A stretch of DNA of 64,000 nucleotides from Sphaerochaetaceae bacterium. GTDB lineage: Bacteria; Spirochaetota; Spirochaetia; Sphaerochaetales; Sphaerochaetaceae. Both the position numbers and the translations under genes were made by a program. The DNA lies in NCBI GenBank assembly GCA_028532915.1, contig JAQQAI010000089.1, positions 1 through 64,000 of the forward strand, read 5' to 3'. Below the pieces are notes generated by a model. That model was not told the origin of the DNA, searched no databases, and saw nothing but the letters and a program-made list of their open reading frames with translations. Positions 53,212 through 60,586 of the stretch are shown here, one piece after another (the first letter of the stretch is position 1; every line of letters begins with the position of its first letter).

Positions 53212-53988
53212 ATGCTTTTGGTTGTTGACATTGGAAATACGAATGTTGTGATGGCGCTGCACGATACAGTCTCATGGGTCGCGGTGTGGCGGATCCACAG
53301 TGACCAGAAGAAAACCAGTGATGAATATTTCGTCATTATTGACTCCATGCTCAGACAGACGGGGGTGGATCCCCATTCCATCGATCAGTCGATCATCTCC
53401 TCGGTTGTTCCGAATCTTACCAGATCATTTGAAAAGGTCGTCAAAGCGGTAAGTGAGACCCATCCTGTCATGGTGAACCACGACTGCTGTGTAGGACTGG
53501 TAAGAGAGAGCATACCTTCCGAACTGGGATATGATCTTCTTTCAAACGCAGTCGCAGCCCATTACCGCTATCCCGATGATACTGTTATGGTTATCGATTT
53601 CGGCACGGCACTTACCTTCACTACGGTAGATGATAAAGGCAACATTCTCGGCGTATCGATTGCTCCCGGCCTTATCACCGCAGTAAACTCTCTTTTCAAC
53701 AATACGGCACAGATTCCTCAGGTACAGCTGAAAATACCGAAGTCAACGCTGGGGACCAACAGTGATGAATCGATACGCAGCGGAATAATGTTCGGGTTTT
53801 CGGGTCTGGTGAATTCCATGATCAGAAGGACCTCGGACGAGCTTCATCGTACGTTGAAGGTGATCATCACAGGAGGACTTTCACAAACGATAGCTCCTCT
53901 GATAGACCATGTAGATGATATCGAACCCCTCCACACATTGGAAGGGCTGAGAATCATAAACGAGGGACTTACTCGAAATCCTTCGTGA
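53212..53988 (+). CDS. coaX: Type III pantothenate kinase
   Basis: CoaX phosphorylates pantothenate, the first step of CoA synthesis. The 258-residue ASKHA-fold protein has the phosphate loop VVDIGNTNVVMAL, the DFGTALTFTTVD motif, the TAVNSLFNNTAQIPQ segment and the adenosine motif IITGGLS. AGGAGAG precedes the ATG, 14 bases after the ABC-F stop. The last 20 bases overlap the convergent aminopeptidase gene. Confidence 0.95.
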   Translation: MLLVVDIGNTNVVMALHDTVSWVAVWRIHSDQKKTSDEYFVIIDSMLRQTGVDPHSIDQSIISSVVPNLTRSFEKVVKAVSETHPVMVNHDCCVGLVRESIPSELGYDLLSNAVAAHYRYPDDTVMVIDFGTALTFTTVDDKGNILGVSIAPGLITAVNSLFNNTAQIPQVQLKIPKSTLGTNSDESIRSGIMFGFSGLVNSMIRRTSDELHRTLKVIITGGLSQTIAPLIDHVDDIEPLHTLEGLRIINEGLTRNPS

Positions 53989-55210
53989 ACTTTCCGTCTT
54001 CCATGATCACGAACTCATTGCCGTTCTCATCTGTTGCCACGATACTCATATCGTCAGAGCCGAACATGAAATCGGTATGAACATTTGACTGGTTGCATCC
54101 GGCGTCACGAAGATTCTGTTCATTCACCTTATCATGTTCAAGCTTGAGACAGGTCGGGTATCCTGCACCCAGTGCGAAGTGGCATGACGCATTCTCATCA
54201 TAGAGAATCGAATTGAAAACCGTATCTGCCCTGGCGATAGGGGATCTCTGGTCCACAAGAGCTATCTCTCCCACAAATGATGATCCCTCGTCGATTGCAA
54301 GATATTTGTGCAGCAGATCCTCTCCTTCTGAAGCTGTTGCTTCAACGACTTTTCCATCTTTGAATGTGAATCTCATTTCATTGACCCTGGAGTCGAACAG
54401 TGTAACAGGTTTCGTAGTCGTGATGATACCATCCACTTTTTTGAAATGTGGTGTGGTGAAGACCTCTTCGGTAGGTATATTCGGATAAAATGGTCGTCCA
54501 TCTACAGTAAAGTCGCCTCCGCCTTCCCATTTATGCAGCGGTCCAAGACCGACAGTCACGTCGGTTTGGGAACTTCTGAAGTGAAGGGATGTGATATGTC
54601 GCGAATTTAACAGTCCTGCTCTGCGCTCTATCGCCTGATTATGCTCTGCAAGAGCCCGAGAGGGATCTTCCTGGTCCAGATGGAGAATGGGTGCCAGAAC
54701 TCTCCACAGGTCATCTTCTGCGGCCTCTTCTCCAAGGATGCTCTTCGCCCATGTATCGCTTGGAACACATACCACACACCATGGAACGACATTCGACATC
54801 CGCGCTATTCGGGCTTTTCTATGAAACAGTGAATTGGCTCTTGAATATAGAGCGAGCTTGTCCGGATCGGCGTTTTTCAGAACGTCACGCTCGTCAGTAT
54901 TGTCGATACGGACATAAGCCCACCCCTCTTCGATCATCACTTCATCTTCGTTTCCGAAAAAAGGGGGGATATAAGAGAGAGCTTTCTCATCATCCTGCGC
55001 TGATAAACGTGAATTGAGCAGTCTCAGATCATCTACTCTGATCTCCACGTGAGTCGCACCTTTTTCATAGGCTGCCTGACCTACCTCAGAGGCGAACGGA
55101 TAACAGGCAAGGCTGGTTTTGATCATCAGAGACTGTCCCTTTTCGAGATTTATGCCCTGATTCACGATCATCCGGGCATACTCCCGTTTCATCAATTCTA
55201 TATCTTTCAT
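53969..55210 (-). CDS. M29 (AmpS/PepS-type) aminopeptidase
   Basis: The 413-residue peptidase has the M29 architecture with its metal ligands visible: E in IPTEEVFTTP, E in FVGEIALVD, H in ASCHFALG, Y in GAGYP, and HxD in VHTDFMFG. It should release N-terminal residues from peptides in the cytoplasm. AGGAGA precedes the ATG. It is the second gene of a two-gene operon, three bases after a paralogue. Confidence 0.93.
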   Translation of the reverse strand: MKDIELMKREYARMIVNQGINLEKGQSLMIKTSLACYPFASEVGQAAYEKGATHVEIRVDDLRLLNSRLSAQDDEKALSYIPPFFGNEDEVMIEEGWAYVRIDNTDERDVLKNADPDKLALYSRANSLFHRKARIARMSNVVPWCVVCVPSDTWAKSILGEEAAEDDLWRVLAPILHLDQEDPSRALAEHNQAIERRAGLLNSRHITSLHFRSSQTDVTVGLGPLHKWEGGGDFTVDGRPFYPNIPTEEVFTTPHFKKVDGIITTTKPVTLFDSRVNEMRFTFKDGKVVEATASEGEDLLHKYLAIDEGSSFVGEIALVDQRSPIARADTVFNSILYDENASCHFALGAGYPTCLKLEHDKVNEQNLRDAGCNQSNVHTDFMFGSDDMSIVATDENGNEFVIMEDGKFTKDFE

Positions 55211-55213
55211 GTT

Positions 55214-56416
55214 CTATTCTCCTGTATTCAAAATAAATCTTCCGTTTACCATAAGAGGAAACGTTTGATCCTGTTCATCGATGATATCGACGCATAAGGA
55301 AGGTGAGCCGATAGGGACCCTCCCTCTGAAGTTGCTGATGTTCACTCCTGTCTGTTCTCCGAGTTCCTTTTCATCTTCATAGGTTTTTAGTGCTTCCATA
55401 TGTTTTGCATCTCCCATTCCCAGAAAAAGAGAGCTTGTGAACACATCATCGATGACAGGGTCACCATAATAATGGATGTCGTGAGGGAAGATGTGTTCAT
55501 CTGTGAAGGAGAGGAATCCGGCTTTCGAAGCTCCATCATCGATTGCGAATATCTTCTCGAGAGCTTCTTTTCCCTCATCCGCATCGTAGCTGACGACTTT
55601 TCCGTTTTCAAAGACGAATTTTGCATTCGTGACCCATTGTCCGAGCATTCTGAAAGGGCGGGGCGGATATACAATACCGCTGGTATGGCTGCTGTCGGGG
55701 ATCATGGTGATTCCCCGGTCAAATAGAGAAGAGATGAAACTTCGCTGATTGTCCAGTATCGAAAGTCTCTGTCTGAATCTGCTTTCCTCTATCATCAGGA
55801 CTCTGAGATCGGTTTTCGAATCGTAGATATGCAGTTGTATGCTCTCATGTCTATGAATCTGTCTCAATAGATCCTGATTGAATCTGAGATGATCGACCCA
55901 TGCCCGGGATGTATCCTCTCTGTCAAGAAACAGATGAGAAGCGAATAAGGACCACATACGGTCAAGTGTATCGTCACCTTTACCGAACACTTTCTCCGCC
56001 CACAGCCTGTGAGGTATGGCAGCGACGGCAAACGGAGCCACCTCTCTGTTGAGCTGAGGAGGGCCCAGATTTCCTGCGCGTTGCAGAAGAGGCGGCTGTG
56101 ACACTATCTGATCGGGTGAGTAATCCGAGAGATCATTGTCGAGGTCGGCATCACTCAGTCTCAGAAGGACCTTCTGAATGGAGGTCTCGCTGATAAGCTC
56201 ATGTTCGACAGGGGTGACAGAGAAAACCTCTTTCACTTTTCCCTCTTCGACCAGTACGATCGAAACGGGGACTTTCGTGATCTCACTCGCCATCTGAGCC
56301 AGATCCTGGGCGAACTGAAGATTCCCTTCGCCTGTGTTAATCGAAAGGCCTTCTCCTTCACAGAGATTGAGAGAGATGCCGATGATGATGTCCATATATT
56401 TCTTTCTGTAATCCAT
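55214..56416 (-). CDS. M29 aminopeptidase-like protein without metal ligands
   Basis: This 400-residue protein is a paralogue of the downstream aminopeptidase over its whole length (YADEGKEALEKIFAIDDGASKAGF against EGEDLLHKYLAIDEGSSFVGE). Each metal-ligand segment is changed: TSGIVYPP for PTEEVFTTP, AGFLSFTD for VGEIALVD, SSLFLGMG for SCHFALGAG, VPIGSPSL for VHTDFMFG. It is probably not a peptidase; it may be a regulatory or structural partner of its neighbour. The frame is intact, so it is not a decayed gene. AAGGA precedes the ATG. Confidence 0.85.
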   Translation of the reverse strand: MDYRKKYMDIIIGISLNLCEGEGLSINTGEGNLQFAQDLAQMASEITKVPVSIVLVEEGKVKEVFSVTPVEHELISETSIQKVLLRLSDADLDNDLSDYSPDQIVSQPPLLQRAGNLGPPQLNREVAPFAVAAIPHRLWAEKVFGKGDDTLDRMWSLFASHLFLDREDTSRAWVDHLRFNQDLLRQIHRHESIQLHIYDSKTDLRVLMIEESRFRQRLSILDNQRSFISSLFDRGITMIPDSSHTSGIVYPPRPFRMLGQWVTNAKFVFENGKVVSYDADEGKEALEKIFAIDDGASKAGFLSFTDEHIFPHDIHYYGDPVIDDVFTSSLFLGMGDAKHMEALKTYEDEKELGEQTGVNISNFRGRVPIGSPSLCVDIIDEQDQTFPLMVNGRFILNTGE

Positions 56417-56563: not shown

Positions 56564-56634
56564 GCGCCTGTGGTATAGTGGTATTACCTCAGCCTTCCAA
56601 GCTGAAGAGGCGGGTTCGATTCCCGTCGGGCGCT
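56564..56634 (+). tRNA. tRNA-Gly (TCC)
   Basis: 71-base cloverleaf: acceptor GCGCCTG/CGGGCGC, discriminator T, anticodon stem TCAGC/GCTGA with loop CTTCCAA (anticodon TCC), T arm GCGGG TTCGATT CCCGT. No encoded CCA. Confidence 0.96.
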
Positions 56635-56637
56635 CTC

Positions 56638-57605: not shown

Positions 57606-59618
57606 ATGAAAATCGCATTAGCAGGTAATCCGAACAGTGGGAAGACCACTCTCTTCAATGCTCTGACAGGTAAGATTGAGCATGTGGGAAACTGGCCCGG
57701 TGTCACAGTCGAGAAAAAAGAAGGTTCAATAAAGAGATCACTTAACGGATCTTCCGAGAAGATGACGGTTGTCGACCTTCCCGGAGCCTACTCTTGTTCG
57801 CCATATACTCAGGAAGAGTCGATAACAAAAGATTTCGTCATGAAGGAACAACCTGATGTCATACTGAATATCGTAGATGCGACAAATCTTTCGAGATCCC
57901 TGTTTTTCACCTCGCAGCTGCTCGAACTCGGTATTCCCGTGGTTGTAGCTTTGAATAAATCAGATCTCAATGTAAAACAGAAAACTGTCATCGATACTCT
58001 GCTGCTCAGCGAAAAACTACATTGTCCGGTCGTCGATACTGTGGCAACAAAAGGAGGTGCTTCCAATGGTCTCTCTCAGCTGGTGCAGGCTATCTTCGGA
58101 GCCTATTTGAGCAAGGAGAAACAAAGGTCTCTCGGAATCCGCAATGCTCAGACGGCGGCAACGAAGGAAGAGGTGCAGAAAGTCGATGAAAAGCGGTTCA
58201 AAGTCATCGCCTCAATTGTGAAGGAAGTCGAACGGAGAAATGTTCATTCATCATCCCAGAAGATGGGGGATGCGATAGACCGTGTCGTCGCTCACAAATG
58301 GCTCGGCATTCCGATATTTGTTCTGGTTATCTGGTTCGTCTTCTCGCTTTCTCAGTCGTGGCTGGGACCGTTTCTTGCCGATTTCTTCGTCGGATTGATT
58401 GACGGCCTCTATGCTTTAGTCGATTCTGCCATGGGTGATTCGGTGAATCCTGTACTCCATTCTCTGCTTCTTGACGGGATTATAGGCGGGGTAGGAGCAG
58501 TAATAGGATTTCTTCCTCTTATCATGGTGCTGTTTTTCACTCTTGCTCTTCTTGAGGATGTGGGGTATATGGCACGGGTTGCTGTGGTTATGGACCGTTT
58601 TTTCAAGAAGATCGGTCTTTCAGGGAAATCGATCATCCCTATGATCGTCAGTACCGGCTGTGCGATTCCCGGCGTCATGGCAACAAGGACCATCAAGAAC
58701 GAACGACAGCGCAGAACTACGGCAATGCTTTCACCGTTTATGCCGTGCGGAGCAAAACTTCCGATCATAGCGCTGTTTTCCGGGATATTCTTCAACGAGA
58801 ACAGCTGGGTGGGAACTTCGATGTACATGCTTGCAATCATAGTTGTTATTGTAAGCGGGCTTGTGATCAGAAAGATAACAGGTGATACGAGTCAGTCCTA
58901 TTTTATTATGGAGCTTCCTGAATACAGGGTCCCTAGTGTAAAGAGAGCCGCTTTGTCAATGCTCAACAGAGCGAAAGCATTCATCATAAAGGCCGGAACG
59001 ATCATTCTCGTATGTAATGCAGTCGTTCAGCTTCTGCAGACGTTCAACTGGTCGTTCCAGGTAGTCGGCGAGAGCAATCCCGGCCAGAGCATCCTTGCTT
59101 CCATAGCATCACCTATTGCCTTCTTGTTCATCCCTCTCGGATTCGGAATCTGGCAGTTTGCAGCTGCAGCTATCACAGGGTTTATTGCCAAGGAGAATGT
59201 AGTAGGAACGTTGGCTGTGACCTTCGCCATTACAAATTTCATCGACGTCGAAGAGCTTGCTCTTGTCGGCGGAACGACAGAGGTCATGGCCGTGTTCGGT
59301 ATAGGTTCTGTCGCAGCTTTAGCGTATCTGGTGTTCAACCTGTTCACTCCTCCCTGTTTTGCTGCAATCGGAGCGATGAATGCCGAACTTGAATCCAAGA
59401 AATGGCTGTTCGGAGCTATCGGGTATCAGTTGGGAACCGGATATACGCTGGCATTCTTTGTCTATCAGTTCGGAACTCTCTTCACAACAGGCAGTTTCGG
59501 TACGGCGTTCGTCCCCGGTCTGATAGCTGTGGCGGCGATGATCGGTTTCATCATCTATCTGATTAAGAGACCGAAGGCTGTTCAAAGTGTCAGTAGAACA
59601 GTCAAGGTCGGAGCATAA
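57606..59618 (+). CDS. feoB: Ferrous iron transporter FeoB
   Basis: FeoB imports Fe(II) using a cytosolic G domain. The 670-residue protein has G1 GNPNSGKTT, G2/G3 TVEKKEG and DLPGAYS, G4 NKSD, a helical spacer domain to about 215, and a membrane region with about ten helices, including the paired gate motifs with Cys (STGCAIPGVMATRTIKNERQRR and TPPCFAAIGAMNAEL). Length is near the shorter end of the family. GAAGGAG precedes the ATG. Confidence 0.97.
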   Translation: MKIALAGNPNSGKTTLFNALTGKIEHVGNWPGVTVEKKEGSIKRSLNGSSEKMTVVDLPGAYSCSPYTQEESITKDFVMKEQPDVILNIVDATNLSRSLFFTSQLLELGIPVVVALNKSDLNVKQKTVIDTLLLSEKLHCPVVDTVATKGGASNGLSQLVQAIFGAYLSKEKQRSLGIRNAQTAATKEEVQKVDEKRFKVIASIVKEVERRNVHSSSQKMGDAIDRVVAHKWLGIPIFVLVIWFVFSLSQSWLGPFLADFFVGLIDGLYALVDSAMGDSVNPVLHSLLLDGIIGGVGAVIGFLPLIMVLFFTLALLEDVGYMARVAVVMDRFFKKIGLSGKSIIPMIVSTGCAIPGVMATRTIKNERQRRTTAMLSPFMPCGAKLPIIALFSGIFFNENSWVGTSMYMLAIIVVIVSGLVIRKITGDTSQSYFIMELPEYRVPSVKRAALSMLNRAKAFIIKAGTIILVCNAVVQLLQTFNWSFQVVGESNPGQSILASIASPIAFLFIPLGFGIWQFAAAAITGFIAKENVVGTLAVTFAITNFIDVEELALVGGTTEVMAVFGIGSVAALAYLVFNLFTPPCFAAIGAMNAELESKKWLFGAIGYQLGTGYTLAFFVYQFGTLFTTGSFGTAFVPGLIAVAAMIGFIIYLIKRPKAVQSVSRTVKVGA

Positions 59619-59845: not shown

Positions 59846-60547
59846 TCAGATCACTCTGTAGCACAAATAGTGGGCGGTCGAGAGAGGAATCTTGATGGTG
59901 AAGTTGTTGTTTTCCACTTCCATGCTCTCATCGGTGAGAAACTCTCTTGCGATGATCTTTGTTCCTGGATAGAGATTATGCATATTGCAGAACTTCAGCA
60001 GTCCCTGCACGGCCTCACCCTCTTCGGTGATCCTGATCACTTCGAGGGGAACGTTTAACGGAGCGCTATCGAGGCGGGGTGCCGAGATGAGCGCATGCTC
60101 TGCCTCGCATCCGGGGAACGGGTTGCCGTGAGGACAACGGTCCGGTTTGCCGAAGAATTCATAGAGATACTCGGTGAATTCGTCACTGATCGTATGCTGA
60201 AGTCTCTGGGCTTCATCGTCAGCTTTTTCCCAGGGATAATTCATCCTCTTAATCAGCATATATTCGGCAAGATAGTGCTTTGTCAGCACCTTGATTCCGT
60301 ATGATCGACCGAGCTGTGTAAGGGTAATGTTCCTGTAGGTATCCTGCTGGGCCAGATTAAGCAGTTTCAGACGTTTGATAGCCTGGTTTACCGCAGGCTT
60401 CGAAACATTGAGCTTTTTAGCAAGCTGGGAATTCAGGACCTTCCCGTATTCCCGTTCCAGCAGGAACATCGTCACAAGGTAATTCAGAGCTGCCGGAAAC
60501 TTCTCTTGTAGCTGTTCAAAGGTTAATTCATTCTTTTCCATCGACAT
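59846..60547 (-). CDS. DtxR/MntR-family metal-dependent repressor
   Basis: The 233-residue protein has an N-terminal winged HTH (VLNSQLAKKLNVSKPAVNQAIKRLKLLNL ... ITLTQLGRSYG), a dimerisation/metal domain (LQHTISDEFTEYLYEFFGKPDRCPHGNPFPG) and a C-terminal SH3-like FeoA domain (ALISAPRLDSAPLN to the end). The Cys/Asp that precedes the ligand His in many members is replaced by Gln (RLQH). The start is uncertain: ATG 60547 or 60541 lack a ribosome site, while TTG 60577 has AAAGGA nine bases upstream. It probably represses feoAB in response to Fe or Mn. Confidence 0.9.
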   Translation of the reverse strand: MSMEKNELTFEQLQEKFPAALNYLVTMFLLEREYGKVLNSQLAKKLNVSKPAVNQAIKRLKLLNLAQQDTYRNITLTQLGRSYGIKVLTKHYLAEYMLIKRMNYPWEKADDEAQRLQHTISDEFTEYLYEFFGKPDRCPHGNPFPGCEAEHALISAPRLDSAPLNVPLEVIRITEEGEAVQGLLKFCNMHNLYPGTKIIAREFLTDESMEVENNNFTIKIPLSTAHYLCYRVI

Positions 60548-60570
60548 AAGTGTAATGCACTGAGGAGAAA

Positions 60571-60586
60571 AACTCAACTGAGTTGA
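60571..60586. promoter_or_regulatory. Palindrome upstream of the DtxR-family gene
   Basis: AACTCAACTGAGTT (60571-60584) is an inverted repeat with 6-bp arms, and TCAACTGAGTTGA (60574-60586) is an overlapping one. It differs from the feoA palindrome, so a shared repressor cannot be claimed. Autoregulation is possible. Confidence 0.35.

Follow-up and report, generated by a model that had tools for sequence, protein, structure and literature searches.

The locus described here raises the question of what an M29-fold protein without metal ligands does beside a homologue that keeps all of them. It lies in a window of 64,000 nucleotides, the whole stretch of DNA analysed, in which two M29-family genes, here called DEG (upstream) and CAN (downstream), stand in tandem (Table 1). 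A common explanation for pseudoenzymes is that they regulate their active relatives, and a sequence-only reading of this DNA had proposed an active/pseudoenzyme pair of this kind, perhaps a heterodimer in which the inactive subunit gates or allosterically controls the peptidase.

Table 1. Coordinates of the DEG/CAN pair and of its features in the window
Feature	Position	Strand	Description or basis
DEG, upstream gene of the pair	55214..56416	(-)	400 aa, M29-fold protein without metal ligands
CAN, downstream gene of the pair	53969..55210	(-)	413 aa, canonical M29 aminopeptidase, EEHYHD
Spacer AAC, DEG stop TAG to CAN start ATG	55211..55213	(-)	Sequence
DEG N-terminal domain, residues 1-127	56036..56416	(-)	Remodelled; conservation not dropped
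DEG stretch with the six former ligand positions, residues 235-366	55301..55714	(-)	Alignment
coaX (type III pantothenate kinase), convergent neighbour	53212..53988	(+)	Synteny

Both genes encode full-length M29 proteins and the upstream frame is intact, as had been claimed: PF02073 (curated cut-off, 27 bits) matches each protein over its whole length, with 139 bits for DEG (residues 5-394) and 428 bits for CAN. The three-base gap reported between the genes is exact. The junction reads CTG AAT ACA GGA GAA TAG AAC ATG, with both frames in register, and the 3' end of DEG contains an AGGAG Shine-Dalgarno-like motif ahead of CAN; the short spacer and this motif are consistent with translational coupling of the two genes. 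Read-through of the TAG (55208-55216) would join DEG and CAN in frame, giving an 815-residue fusion. The shared register looks incidental, since the spacer is divisible by three in just 3 of 25 tandem loci (the window, L051 and L095). A scan for promoters and terminators gave signals at chance level. Just upstream of the pair, a tRNA-Gly (tcc) gene is found on the opposite strand at 56564-56635; further along lie a gene for a FeoB-like ferrous iron transporter (57606-59618, named from its sequence only) and, on the strand opposite to it, one for a winged-helix-like regulator (59846-60577). For its part, coaX is a conserved flank of the locus and stands outside the mechanism discussed below.

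The positions of the metal ligands were set by phmmer alignments to AmpS, AmpT and PepS and by a MAFFT alignment of 89 M29 proteins, the six ligands being E250, E316, H345, Y352, H376 and D378 in AmpT numbering. CAN has all six (E249, E315, H344, Y351, H378 and D380) and is predicted to be an active-type M29 aminopeptidase with a full dinuclear metal site. The corresponding residues of DEG are G235, F301, S329, D336, R364 and R366 (GFSDRR), none of them a ligand, which agrees with the earlier claim that the downstream protein keeps its ligands and the upstream one replaces them all. Full-length DEG relatives (n = 45) retain from none to three of the six. Y352 and H376 are absent from all 45, the latter being replaced by Arg in 30, and E250 is kept in 3; E316, though lost in the DEG of the window, is present in 35. 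Parts of the old metal pocket persist in DEG relatives, and the pocket residues differ between DEG lineages. Arg or Lys occupies at least one ligand position in 43 of the 45 DEG proteins and in none of the canonical proteins. The claim of ligand loss also held when ligands at shifted positions were sought: the 45 full-length proteins of the DEG clade share no conserved His or Cys, and those acidic columns that are found mainly in DEG fall within its N-terminal domain, giving no indication of such ligands. Judged by these alignments, DEG cannot work as an M29 peptidase, its metal site being lost.

Homologues of DEG are present in most of the sampled genera of Sphaerochaetaceae, in dozens of genomes and nearly always with an uninterrupted frame, which is far beyond chance for a degenerate paralogue. 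The pair, looked for in other spirochaetes, was found in tandem in many genera of this one family, so that the proposed pairing of an active-type enzyme with a pseudoenzyme was borne out. The degenerate M29 copy is a fixed trait of Sphaerochaetaceae. In the tree, the DEG copies form one clade with full support, apart from every canonical sequence and with branches longer than those of the canonical clade. Among the 395 genomes of the class searched, matches above 300 bits were confined to Sphaerochaetaceae, and the M29 copies read out elsewhere in the class retain five or six ligands; the DEG clade thus appears to be family-specific. Among the papers searched, none combined Sphaerochaeta with peptidase M29.

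Several further genera carry DEG forms of about 350 aa without the segment around H345. Five shortened relatives (331-360 aa) were located, at L064 528-1571, L088 5093-6139, L063 4734-5780, L065 1091-2173 and L068 4732-5727, and this segment is missing in four of them. Some of these genomes have a canonical M29 gene elsewhere, and in G016 (L068) it lies directly downstream. Other M29 proteins occur outside the locus. The genome of the window encodes a third one on another contig (C49; L034 4000-5184), which has 6/6 ligands and represents a type that is shorter (about 366-394 aa) and recurs in many Sphaerochaetaceae genomes. Similarly, unlinked M29 proteins of genus g17 (L059, L085 and L086, in G069, G136 and G156) read EEHAHD, with Ala aligned with Tyr352; they keep five ligands and sit apart on a long branch of their own, which may reflect either another, milder departure or an effect of the alignment.

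The gene order smc< rnhB> DEG> CAN> <coaX <ABC-F <tsaD is found in nearly all genera. Two other families of the class have just one M29 gene at this site, an intact one, adjoining coaX, ABC-F, apt and tsaD in one case (L073) and between rnhB and ABC-F in the other (L114), with surroundings that match the DEG/CAN locus in part only. Tandem duplication in place is therefore the simplest history. The position of DEG outside all canonical sequences on the tree is not decisive, since a tree with the duplication at the family's base is just as compatible with the data (AU p 0.364; log-likelihood difference, 0.10). Thus, the ancestor of Sphaerochaetaceae probably had an intact M29 gene between rnhB/smc and coaX that underwent tandem duplication. 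Of the two copies, the downstream one would have stayed a dinuclear-metal aminopeptidase, and the upstream one would have lost its metal site, commonly with Arg or Lys at ligand positions, while keeping the fold.

Confident AlphaFold2 models were obtained for DEG (pLDDT 91.9, pTM 0.88) and CAN (pLDDT 94.4, pTM 0.91), and the best PDB matches of both were PepS, AmpS and AmpT (PDB 1zjc, 2ayi and 4icq/4icr/4ics for the three enzymes). The TM score reached 0.94 for CAN (with PepS) and 0.73 to 0.77 for DEG, which is accordingly predicted to fold as an M29 protein. Both proteins share sequence family and predicted fold with these enzymes; however, while CAN has the full EEHYHD set, DEG differs from them in the lower TM scores, the loss of every ligand and a remodelled N-terminal domain. 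Where the model of CAN has N-terminal helices at 62-71, 75-78 and 83-94, the corresponding part of the DEG model consists of a second strand (60-67) and a loop, and the N-terminal segment measures 79 to 89 residues in DEG proteins versus mostly 96 in CAN.

Conservation in DEG has shifted from the catalytic to the N-terminal domain. Relative to CAN, mean conservation in DEG changed by -0.67 bits per site in the catalytic domain and by +0.04 in the N-terminal domain, a difference between domains that 20000 permutations never reached and that circular shifts reached in 2 of 393 cases. The constrained sites specific to DEG (N27, T47, G59, L117 and P120) are found for the most part within the N-terminal domain or in its link to the second domain, P368 and F255 being exceptions; Gly, Pro and hydrophobic residues make up the majority of the conserved sites particular to DEG. 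Apparently, then, the N-terminal domain has become the working part of DEG; it would have been remodelled and would now be relatively the most constrained part of the protein. The shift could also reflect structural rather than functional constraint.

DEG and CAN do not always co-occur, and many genomes have DEG alone. CAN is gone from the locus, with DEG still there, in genera g5, g12, g17 and g19. Among genomes at least 90% complete, 24 encode no PF02073 protein other than DEG (seven g12, fifteen g17 and two g5 genomes), a figure that is approximate because most CAN-free genomes are drafts and because two of the 24 (G134 and G149) have a stop inside the matched stretch; the absence of CAN from the site was checked for the loci examined. 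Some DEG copies in CAN-free genomes may have drifted. Three more genomes of the same completeness lack CAN and have a short-type M29 as their only other PF02073 protein. The converse arrangement, CAN without DEG at this site, was not found among the Sphaerochaetaceae loci read out, contig ends aside. DEG is under purifying selection: dN/dS of DEG pairs was 0.04 to 0.14 at loci without CAN and about 0.03 to 0.2 at loci with it. Since these values are low also where CAN is absent, DEG is selected for itself, and it has a role that needs no CAN, because several lineages lost CAN and kept DEG.

With this evidence, we consider it fairly probable that DEG is a non-catalytic binding protein on an M29 scaffold, which was probably once the dimer partner of CAN and has retained an independent role. 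It would most likely bind a peptide or protein without catalysis, probably at first as the partner of the active subunit. A more specific version, about which our confidence is evenly balanced, describes DEG as a distinct, family-wide pseudopeptidase whose partner-independent role is exerted via the remodelled N-terminal domain, that is, as a tandem duplicate outlasting its enzyme. We infer the binding role of DEG, its contact with CAN and its action through the N-terminal domain.

The best surviving alternative is the obligate active/pseudoenzyme heterodimer, in which DEG pairs with CAN and gates it or controls it allosterically. More than 20 loci have the tandem, with short spacers between the two genes, and a mixed dimer is plausible because known M29 enzymes are reported to be dimers (PMC7023490). 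In 16 to 25 tandem loci, and after correction for CoaX, ABC-F and TsaD, the evolutionary distances of DEG and CAN were correlated, with partial r of 0.59 to 0.68 by distance and 0.43 to 0.54 by rank. In every subset, DEG-CAN was the strongest by distance of the ten pairs among the five locus genes, while some subsets had a control pair that equalled it by rank. This correlation agrees with a working relationship where both proteins exist, though it does not prove physical contact. However, DEG is retained under selection where CAN is gone, and therefore gating CAN cannot be its sole function; in addition, the N-terminal domain, which holds dimer-interface residues (PMC10070186), is the one remodelled in DEG, with the helices at 62-94 of CAN replaced. 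Thus, the active-type/pseudoenzyme pair of the sequence-only reading is supported by the conserved tandem, and the co-varying distances are in keeping with it, whereas gating as the only role is opposed by the DEG-only genomes; an obligate heterodimer is unlikely, although a heterodimer may be one function of DEG.

The reading of DEG as a binding protein with its own role has a precedent in crocagin biosynthesis. The fold search with the DEG model also returned CgnE and CgnB (PDB 6zsu and 6zsv). CgnE has lost two metal ligands, shows no observed aminopeptidase activity and binds the precursor peptide; in the CgnB/E family, probably three to five duplications have taken place, and the second copy always lost metal-site residues (PMC10070186). 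CgnB and CgnE are monomeric and largely without the dimer-interface residues of the aminopeptidases, the N-terminal part being the main difference (PMC10070186). DEG resembles CgnE in being an M29-fold duplicate that has lost metal ligands next to a homologue with its ligands intact. Unlike the short CgnB and CgnE, DEG has 400 aa and a 127-residue N-terminal domain that is present, though remodelled. The former are encoded in a peptide natural-product (RiPP) cluster, whereas DEG sits among the housekeeping genes smc, rnhB, coaX, ABC-F and tsaD. Peptide binding is reported for CgnE and would be a putative property of DEG, which, in contrast to CgnE, is kept where the intact copy has been lost. 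We do not class it with CgnB/CgnE because of its N-terminal domain, its housekeeping neighbours and its survival beyond the intact copy. A second parallel is the alpha subunit of the mitochondrial processing peptidase, a metal-free homologue that contributes to a functional heterodimer with its active homologue (PMC11266112); DEG, unlike this subunit, is kept without its active partner in many genomes. The review in question covers pseudo-metallopeptidases of M16 and other families and does not mention M29 (PMC11266112).

It is distinctly less probable that DEG is a different, metal-independent enzyme. The M29 fold is also used for a different chemistry, and the DEG model matches 2,5-dihydroxypyridine dioxygenase (PDB 7cn3 and 7cup) at the level of the fold (E 5e-9; TM 0.52 to 0.59), with 8% sequence identity. 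That dioxygenase is an iron enzyme, whereas DEG has no ligands at the M29 metal site. The polar residues N27, T47, R225, D293 and S361, strongly conserved in DEG, would suit an enzyme, but CAN conserves D293 and S361 to the same degree and R225 in part, and these may be structural; the prevalence of Gly, Pro and hydrophobic residues among the DEG-specific sites, the missing conserved His or Cys and the variable pocket argue in the same direction. Finally, that DEG is a decaying duplicate without function is highly improbable, because the low dN/dS and the open frames kept nearly family-wide at one locus argue strongly against it at the level of the family, despite the longer DEG branches, the forms of about 350 aa and the stops in two relatives.

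With DEG, the loss of metals from a duplicated M29-fold protein is seen in a second setting, away from peptide natural-product clusters. As the locus occurs both with the two copies and with the dead copy alone, comparative genomics can separate a role as regulator from a role of its own. For the family, the practical consequence is that annotation by PF02073 only would wrongly call DEG an aminopeptidase in every DEG-only genome.
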